NCBI GenBank assembly: GCA_020629635.1
Contig: JAHDCX010000007.1
Location: forward strand, 1 to 64,000
From: Acidimicrobiales bacterium
GTDB taxonomy: Bacteria; Actinomycetota; Acidimicrobiia; Acidimicrobiales; SHLQ01
Reading direction: 5' to 3'
Length of the DNA stretch: 64,000 nucleotides
Positions 43,783-48,096 of this stretch are shown in pieces. Every line of letters begins with the position of its first letter. Positions within the stretch are counted from its first letter, which is position 1. Below the pieces are notes generated by a model. That model was given only the letters and a program-made list of their open reading frames with translations, was not told the DNA's origin and made no database searches. The position numbers and the translations under genes were made by a program.

Positions 43783-44412
43783 TCAATAACTGACTTGGCA
43801 GAACCCGTGATTGCAGTAGCCGTTCGGGTTCTTGTGGAGATACTGCTGGTGGTAGTCCTCGGCGTAGTAGAAGTCGCCTGCAGGAGCGATCTCGGTGCTG
43901 ATTTCGCCGTGGCCTGACGAGTTCAGCTGCGCTTGGTAGCGAGCCTTCGACGCGATGGCCGCCTCGAGCTGGGCCTCGCTGTTCGTGTAGATCGCACTCC
44001 GATATTGCGTGCCGACGTCGTTGCCCTGACGATTGGGCGTGGTCGGGTCGTGATTCTCCCAGAAGATCCGAAAGAGCTCGTCGAGCTCGACGACCGACGG
44101 GTCAAACACGATGAGGACCGCTTCGGTGTGACCCGTCCTGCCACTGCAGGTCTCTTCATACGTCGGGTTCGGAGTGAACCCGCCGGCGTAACCGACCGCG
44201 GTCGTGTAAACGCCGTCGAGTTGCCAGAAGAACCGTTCGGCGCCCCAGAAACAGCCCATGCCCACGACGAGGGTGTCCATACCGTCCGGGAACGGCGGAG
44301 TCATCGACGTGCCGAGCACGATGTGTGCGTCGGCGACGGGCATGGACGCCTCTCGGCCCGCCAAAGCTTCGTCGGCGGCGATCATGACGGGTTCGGGGCG
44401 ACGGAAGAACAT
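43783..44412 (-). CDS. msrA: Peptide-methionine (S)-S-oxide reductase
   Basis: This 209-residue MsrA has catalytic Cys54 in [13 protein letters not shown], the substrate-binding [20 protein letters not shown]-type segment, [20 protein letters not shown], and C-terminal cysteines in GYCNHGFCQ that can act as recycling cysteines. It reduces methionine-S-sulfoxide in proteins at the expense of thioredoxin. TAGCGT lies exactly six bases before its ATG. The catalytic residue is a normal TGC cysteine. Confidence 0.95.
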
Positions 44413-47000: not shown

Positions 47001-47660
47001 GTGGCGAGAACCTGGACCCGAGCATGGCTGGCGACCGTCGTCGTCCTCATCGGTGCGGCTGCCATCGTCCGCAACCGCAACGCCACGCTGCTGCGCGTCG
47101 AAGAGCCGGTGATGGAATGGCTTCTCGACGGAACCGATACGAGCGGCTGGGCGCGCTTCTCATGGTTGGGCGGCGACGCGCTGACGTTCGGCGGACTCGT
47201 CGTGTTGGCACTGGTCGCGCTCTGGTTCAACCGGCGTGCTGCCATCGCACTGATCGGATCGATGATCTTCGGGCTGGCCGTCGCGTGGCTGGTTCGGGAT
47301 CTCGTGGCCCGCGAGCGTCCCGTGGCCGCCGAGTCGACGTCCGGCTCGTTCCCGTCGATCGACCTCGTGCAAACCGGGGTGTTCTGGGGTCTCCTGGTGT
47401 TGGTGATCTGGTGGCTCGGTGCGCCCCGGATCGTGTGGCAGATCGTCAGCGAAGTCGGGATCGTCGCCACGATCCTGGTCGCGATCGGCCCGCTCGTTCG
47501 CGGCGAACACTGGCCGTCGGACGTCGTTGGTTCGGCGATCGTCATCGGGCTGACACTGATCGGGGCCGTCGTCCTCCTCGAAGACAACCCGCCGCTGCGG
47601 GGGTTCCCGCGGCCGTGGGCTCAGCGAGACCGAAGGATGTCGAGCGCCCCGTCGGCGTGA
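47001..47660 (+). CDS. PAP2-superfamily phosphatase-like membrane protein
   Basis: This 219-residue protein has five or six transmembrane helices. It shows the PAP2 signature in part: motif 1 as VRDLVARERP, motif 2 reduced to GSFPSID (the usual SGH His is missing), and motif 3 as VRGEHWPSDVVGS with His and Asp. The missing His may lower activity or mean a changed role. Family members dephosphorylate membrane lipids. The GTG start follows TAGGGT by eight bases. Its 3' end overlaps the convergent peroxiredoxin gene by 40 bp. Confidence 0.82.
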   Translation: MARTWTRAWLATVVVLIGAAAIVRNRNATLLRVEEPVMEWLLDGTDTSGWARFSWLGGDALTFGGLVVLALVALWFNRRAAIALIGSMIFGLAVAWLVRDLVARERPVAAESTSGSFPSIDLVQTGVFWGLLVLVIWWLGAPRIVWQIVSEVGIVATILVAIGPLVRGEHWPSDVVGSAIVIGLTLIGAVVLLEDNPPLRGFPRPWAQRDRRMSSAPSA

Positions 47661-48067
47661 GTATTGGCGTTTGTCTCGGACGCAATCTTGCCGAGCAACA
47701 CGGAGTCCTCCCCGATCACGAAGGTCGCCCGCTTTCCCGGAAGCGGACCAAAACGGTGCGTCCCGAATTGCTTGTGCACCGATCCGTCACGGTCGGACAA
47801 CAGCGGGTAGTCGAGTGCATTCTCGAGTTTGAAGGCCTGTTGCTGATCCCACGGATCAGCGCTGATTCCCACTCGCTGAGCACCGAGTTCGGCGAACTCG
47901 CTGGCCAGGTCACGGAAATGACAGCTCTCCTTCGTTCAAAGCGGTGTGCCCGCCTTGGGGTAGAAGAAGAGCACGACAGGTCCGGCTTCGAGCAGTTCGC
48001 TCAACCGGACCGAGGCTCCTGTGTCGTCGACGGCGGTGAAGTCGTCGACGCGATCTCCGGTCTTCAT
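47621..48067 (-). CDS. BCP-type peroxiredoxin with in-frame TGA at the peroxidatic position (probable selenoprotein)
   Basis: From ATG 48067 the frame runs MKTGDRVDDFTAVDDTGASV, then VVLFFYPKAGTPL, to TGA at 47936-47938. It continues in the same frame with TKESCHFRDLASEFAELGAQ, VGISADPWDQQQAF, FGTHRFGPLPGKRATFVI and stops at 47621. Reading TGA as selenocysteine gives 148 residues, the normal BCP length. The TGA stands where BCP enzymes have the peroxidatic Cys (TP-G-C-T), and the resolving Cys five residues later (U44-x4-C49, as C45/C50 in E. coli BCP) is kept. TACGGT lies seven bases before the ATG. The alternative is a Cys-to-stop mutation or sequence error. Confidence 0.8.
47900..47926 (-). 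promoter_or_regulatory. Candidate bacterial SECIS hairpin
   Basis: Starting 9-10 bases after the TGA, the mRNA can form GCU/AGC and GUCA/UGAC stems around a UUUCCG loop, which begins about 17 nt after the UGA. This is within the usual distance for a bacterial SECIS, but the pairing is modest and no strong consensus loop is visible. It is offered only as a candidate. Confidence 0.22.
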
Positions 48068-48096
48068 GGTTCGCACCGTATCGGGTGTACGACCGG

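Follow-up and report, generated by a model that had tools for sequence, protein, structure and literature searches.

A gene on the minus strand of the window, a 64,000-nucleotide stretch of Acidimicrobiales DNA, is interrupted by a single in-frame TGA, and we estimate a probability of roughly 80% that it encodes a functional BCP/PrxQ-type peroxiredoxin with a peroxidatic selenocysteine (Sec), inserted by the organism's own SelA, SelB, SelC and SelD and directed by a bipartite, long-arm bacterial SECIS (bSECIS). The original prediction, in which the gene was read as a selenocysteine peroxiredoxin, is supported by the sequence comparisons, and the UGA is almost certainly read as Sec. The gene, the conservation of its TGA, the Sec machinery of the genome and a conserved RNA structure specific to the Sec genes were each established by computation. 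Peroxiredoxins had also been put forward as a known bacterial selenoprotein family, which the literature bears out, Sec-containing members having long been described (PMC1088965, PMC1794560, PMC2398784, PMC13188914). The protein is of this already known family, and it is the recoding signal that looks new.

The gene and its start region contain the following features.

47621..48067, minus strand: gene for a predicted Sec-peroxiredoxin of BCP/PrxQ type, 148 amino acids plus a TGA stop (read-through translation, Pfam, 5epf homologue)
47936..47938, minus strand: in-frame TGA, predicted Sec44, at the peroxidatic position of PxxxTxxU (TGA conserved in 72 distinct orthologues, the rest TGC/TGT)
48075..48080, minus strand: TACGGT, a hexamer resembling a −10 element, 7 nt upstream of the ATG (from the sequence itself and from relatives)

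The halves of the gene before and after the internal TGA appear as two separate entries in the list of open reading frames. They lie in one frame and are split only by the TGA, as had been proposed, with no further stop or frameshift over 148 codons; the strand, which had not been specified earlier, is minus. Translation from 48067 to 47621 with TGA as U gave MKTGDRVDDF...VVLFFYPKAGTPL-U-TKESCHFRDLASEF...LRSR, 148 residues ending at a TGA stop. Pfam AhpC-TSA (PF00578) and Redoxin (PF08534) matched with 104 and 71 bits, respectively, spanning the joined protein. The local sequence is FFYPKAGTPL-U-TKESCHFRD, in which PKAGTPLU matches PxxxTxxU. Placement of the TGA at the peroxidatic Cys codon was confirmed by the closest PDB relative, 5epf, which aligned over residues 1-147 and has Cys at residue 44, the TGA position, and by the alternation of Cys codons and TGA among homologues. 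The second, resolving-type Cys was correctly anticipated to be intact and is present as Cys49. This residue is replaced by Lys, Arg, Asn or Ala in many Sec orthologues (L204, L207, L209, L213, L218, L219, L222, L224, L226 and L192), which suggests that these may be 1-Sec enzymes using an external thiol. Among NCBIfam models, the protein was closest to those for BCP/PrxQ, yet it fell under every cut-off, and its score with the PrxU model (NF040737) was 30.1 bits against a curated cut-off of 270. A search of the plasmid collection revealed no close relative, all matches being below 60% identity.

The TANNNT hexamer said to lie seven bases before the ATG was found there as TACGGT, and TANNNT 6-8 nt upstream of the start is also present in several relatives. 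Such a placement is expected of a leaderless start, which this gene appears to have. At 43783-44412 (minus strand), 3.2 kb from the peroxiredoxin gene, lies a gene for peptide methionine sulfoxide reductase A with an ordinary catalytic Cys (GMGCFWG).

Distinct orthologues with TGA at the peroxidatic codon numbered 72, from genomes and metagenome bins of Acidimicrobiales-type Actinomycetota and Myxococcota, and the other orthologues that were read had TGC or TGT and nothing else. Within the same genus and family the codon is TGA; farther out it is TGA or TGC/TGT. The homologue alignment suggested earlier thus returned TGA or a Cys codon only, and the downstream frame, decay of which would count against a selenoprotein, was conserved. 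A single base change is enough to convert TGC to TGA, and a pseudogene or a sequencing error in one assembly might be invoked; however, so many distinct TGA orthologues with an open frame, in independent genomes and metagenome bins, refute this as a general explanation and leave its probability negligible. The original prediction held a chance nonsense mutation at this codon to be unlikely, and a chance TGA is excluded because the same codon is kept as TGA, ahead of an open frame, in all 72.

In a maximum-likelihood tree, the Sec peroxiredoxins formed one group within which a single Cys clade, from family f27, was nested, and the extended set gave the same result. The simplest reading of the tree is a single Sec lineage with a single reversion to Cys. 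The nested clade (L227 and L235-L238), in which the hairpin P3 described below has decayed and one genome (G093) keeps SelA, is, as judged from its sequences, a natural return from Sec to Cys.

A search of the source genome (4.45 Mb in 37 contigs, completeness 96.5%) for selA, selB, selC (tRNA-Sec) and selD, proposed earlier as a check, located all four. The selB product (280.8 bits) combines EF-Tu domains with a SelB winged-helix domain, and selA (394 bits) adjoins selB. The tRNA-Sec scored 65 bits and was identified by ARAGORN as tRNA-SeC(tca), with anticodon UCA. The selD gene (L021, G000:C13:133404-134318, minus strand) has an in-frame TGA at the catalytic Cys (GAGUGCK) and is itself predicted to be a selenoprotein gene. 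In the set of relatives, SelA was encoded by every one of the 16 TGA-form genomes but by only 9 of the 24 Cys-form genomes (Fisher p 4e-5, relatedness ignored). SelA was also present in 8/8 additional TGA-form genomes, including four Myxococcota/Deltaproteobacteria bins. Five genomes of the same genus (G003, G004, G005, G007 and G010) contain SelA and no close orthologue of this peroxiredoxin; the selD match in these genomes is a frame of 732-737 aa without TGA, possibly a fusion.

The amino acid inserted is not specified by an in-frame UGA alone, and the frame could be kept by leaky, Sec-independent decoding of UGA as tryptophan or another suppressor amino acid. We consider this scarcely credible. 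The UGA falls on the very codon of the peroxidatic residue, where the only alternatives are Cys codons, and its presence goes together with that of SelA; moreover, the RNA structure is lost where the codon reverts to Cys.

Downstream of the UGA, the mRNA is predicted to contain the following elements.

47926..47935, minus strand: linker of 10 nt from the UGA to the folded arm (alignment columns 10-19 and fold)
47861..47925, minus strand: long closed RNA arm of 65 nt, comprising P1 and P2 (MFE, pair probabilities, closure, z-scores)
47885..47899, minus strand: P2, the hairpin that caps the arm (RNAalifold and pair counts)
47842..47860, minus strand: P3, an 8-bp hairpin GCUGAUCC-GUG-GGAUCAGC that abuts the arm with no linker and is the proposed SelB-binding SECIS hairpin

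In the bSECIS model, the apical loop lies 16-37 nt from the UGA, a G occupies one of the first two loop positions and is often followed by G or U, and the folding energy is <= −7.5 kcal/mol; a subset of bSECIS fails the constraints of the model (PMC13188914). The stem of 8 bp and loop of 3 nt of P3 are inside the bSECIS limits (stem 4-16 bp, loop 3-9 nt), and its folding energy of −11.4 kcal/mol (z −4.1) is below the threshold. By contrast, its apical loop lies 83 nt after the UGA, outside the canonical spacing. For this reason, scanning the 60 nt downstream of the TGA with a SECIS predictor, as had been recommended, would miss the best-supported hairpin. Rfam gave no match, either within the peroxiredoxin gene (E up to 10) or in the 64-kb window (gathering scores).

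Local folding was scanned in 36-nt windows, each being scored by its energy relative to synonymous-codon shuffles in which the protein was held fixed. In the Sec peroxiredoxins, z values of −2.1 and −2.3 were obtained for windows starting at +72 and +78, which correspond to P3, and P2 gave a moderate value of −1.4, whereas the Cys orthologues remained near 0 across the region. There was no signal in Sec peroxiredoxin windows starting 0-18 nt after the UGA, and nothing from +0 to +54 except P2. With selD of the same clade as a positive control, a z of −2.3 was observed at +12, and the appearance of this signal at the canonical place indicates that the scan works. No canonical SECIS with a loop 16-37 nt after the UGA was detected in the Sec peroxiredoxins, the loop of P2 being at 42 nt.

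P3 cells were paired in 97% of cases in 30 Sec sequences compared with 36% in 30 Cys sequences, and the hairpin was missing from nearly all Cys orthologues. Compensatory changes on both sides were found in 4/8 P3 pairs among the 30 Sec sequences, and at four P3 positions the tree implies minima of 19, 8, 3 and 10 changes in pair type. The first loop base, a codon third position, is G in 30/30 Sec sequences compared with 28/46 Cys sequences (p 4e-5, relatedness ignored). It is also G in 72/72 Sec orthologues of the extended set, where the loops are only GGU, GUG, GUC, GUU or GGC, in agreement with the G[G/U] preference of bSECIS. In that set, 35 added Acidimicrobiales Sec sequences had been retrieved by means of the RNA model, and pairing in these is consequently biased upward; seven Myxococcota Sec genes that were retrieved only through their protein carry the same structure. 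The RNA model is imperfect as a classifier, scoring a Cys gene (G349) at 79 bits and a Sec gene (G180) at 65 bits. In L214 (G349), a TGC Cys orthologue, P3 is nearly intact with one mismatch and may be either the fossil of a SECIS or a precursor of one. Extending P3 outward (columns 73-81 with 109-117) gave pairs of low predicted probability, and the extension was dropped.

Both P3 and the arm lie within conserved protein segments, and their conservation could in principle be a by-product of constraint on the ADPVDRQ and EFxEL motifs rather than reflect an RNA element. This is very improbable. Residues 72-73 change freely across the Sec orthologues (PV, QV, SV, PW, RS, RV, PA, PL and QF), but the pairing and loop of P3 hold, and the z of −2.3 at P3 was obtained from shuffles that leave the protein fixed. 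Moreover, the synonymous bias is site-specific: Val66 is GTG in 25/28 Sec sequences and 8/35 Cys sequences, compared with 96/250 at other Val residues of the same Sec genes, and Gly67 is GGC in 0/30 Sec and 22/46 Cys sequences, compared with 106/311 at other Gly residues of the same Sec genes.

The helices of the arm (GCUG..AUUUCC / GGGAAU.CAGC) close around the hairpin GAGUUC-GCC-GAACUC, with an MFE of −25.8 for the arm alone. With the mRNA free from 10 nt after the UGA, pair probabilities in the Sec genes were 0.86 for the base of the arm, 0.61 for the next helix, 0.80 for P2 and 0.91 for P3; in the Cys genes the arm, P2 and P3 reached at most 0.05. Comparison of arm energy with synonymous shuffles gave z values of −2.3 for the set of 30 Sec sequences and −2.0 for 35 further Sec sequences versus −0.2 for Cys sequences, and the unpaired exterior nucleotides of the Sec arm numbered 0.4 or 3.0 versus 6-8 in shuffles. 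In the 30-sequence set, no pair at the base of the arm (P1) had compensatory changes on both sides, and P1 is thus less firmly supported than P3; in divergent members it is re-paired, not kept. Neither the arm nor P3 was well predicted in L081, and the arm differs in L076. For the long-range helix, pairing of columns 26-33 with 73-80 proved better than the register considered first (columns 28-31 with 76-79).

If the SECIS of this Sec-peroxiredoxin were an ordinary local one, either HP1 or P2, P3 would be an accessory, for example a pause site or stabiliser. Both candidates are nearer the UGA: HP1 (GGARA-GCUGYCA-UUUCC) has its loop ∼10 nt after the UGA and fits many Sec members, and P2, with its loop at 42 nt, is conserved with some covariation. 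However, HP1 is broken in Gln46 members (the column 15 and 16 pairs fail in 7/30 and 6/30 sequences of the whole set), and it is almost as well present in Cys genes (79%); on these grounds it was set aside as the SECIS. In addition, the 5′ strand of HP1 is expected to be inside the ribosome during UGA decoding, and the synonymous scan was silent over +0 to +54 apart from P2. The loops of P2 are not conserved (GCC, GAA, UCG and AGC), in contrast to the invariant G[G/U] of P3. An ordinary local SECIS is accordingly regarded as unlikely.

A second, paralogous TGA-containing BCP family with the sequence WWYPKASTPG-U-TxEG is represented by L140 (G006, same genus), L137, L139 and L141. Members of this family and distant Myxococcota Sec-peroxiredoxins did not fold as a long arm, and most form a local hairpin soon after the UGA. 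The long arm therefore looks specific to the orthologous group of the peroxiredoxin described here.

In the long-arm model, the recoding signal is probably brought close to the UGA by the folded RNA. Judging from toeprints, a ribosome with UGA in the A site should cover ∼10 nt downstream. The 10-nt linker would then lie inside the ribosome, the arm of ∼65 nt would close from 10 nt after the UGA with P3 directly adjoining, and SelB carrying Sec-tRNA-Sec would bind the G[G/U] loop of P3 near the mRNA entry site, as with an ordinary SECIS. P3 would be presented near this site because the arm removes most of the 83 nt from the path; the folded path from UGA to P3 would amount to ∼10 nt plus the 8-bp stem, comparable with that in E. 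coli. The parts of this scheme that we infer are that SelB binds P3, that the arm has this spatial role, that Sec is indeed inserted and that the protein is active as a peroxidase. More generally, there is a good chance that some bacteria use a bipartite SECIS with the SelB hairpin >80 nt from the UGA, in which a closed arm of variable length (∼13-17 nt in selD, ∼65 nt in the peroxiredoxin) restores the effective distance, folded path length rather than linear spacing being decisive.

Predictors that apply the 16-37 nt rule of the accepted model would miss genes with a displaced hairpin, which would then be annotated as truncated peroxiredoxins. Should the arm act in the way suggested here, how SelB finds the UGA in space becomes testable, and a route would exist for coding sequences unable to carry a hairpin near the active site. 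Residues 70-76 of the peroxiredoxin would represent a protein segment shaped by an RNA requirement.

No description of a displaced, two-hairpin or long-arm bacterial SECIS was found in the open-access papers searched, a weak indication that the signal is new. The known Sec-peroxiredoxins, PrxU of Eubacterium acidaminophilum and the Sargasso Sea/GOS proteins, share with this protein the AhpC/TSA fold, the peroxidatic Sec, PxxxTxxU and the bacterial Sec machinery (PMC13188914, PMC1088965, PMC2398784). The present protein differs in belonging to a BCP/PrxQ-like lineage found in Acidimicrobiales-type Actinomycetota and in Myxococcota, in its displaced recoding hairpin and in scoring far under the PrxU cut-off. 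Cys-containing BCP-type peroxiredoxins (5epf; Mycobacterium, Pseudonocardiaceae) are of the same protein family with ∼57-62% identity but have a Cys codon and no P3. In E. coli, the upper stem-loop starts 11 nt from the UGA, and G23 and U24 of the loop matter (PMC8659212). P3 resembles the canonical bacterial SECIS of E. coli fdhF in its short 8-bp stem, its 3-nt G[G/U] loop and the ∼10 nt from the UGA to the first fold, whereas the loop at 83 nt and the separate 65-nt closed arm between the UGA and P3 set the peroxiredoxin apart from it. The closest parallel in form is the selD SECIS of the same clade, for which RNAalifold (L021 and 15 others) gave two near-abutting hairpins with double changes in 7/13 pairs. 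As in the peroxiredoxin, the second hairpin has 8 bp and a G-U-N triloop, and ∼10 nt separate the UGA from the first; the selD arm is ∼13-17 nt and its loop lies 33 nt after the UGA, within the canonical range, whereas the arm of the peroxiredoxin is ∼65 nt.
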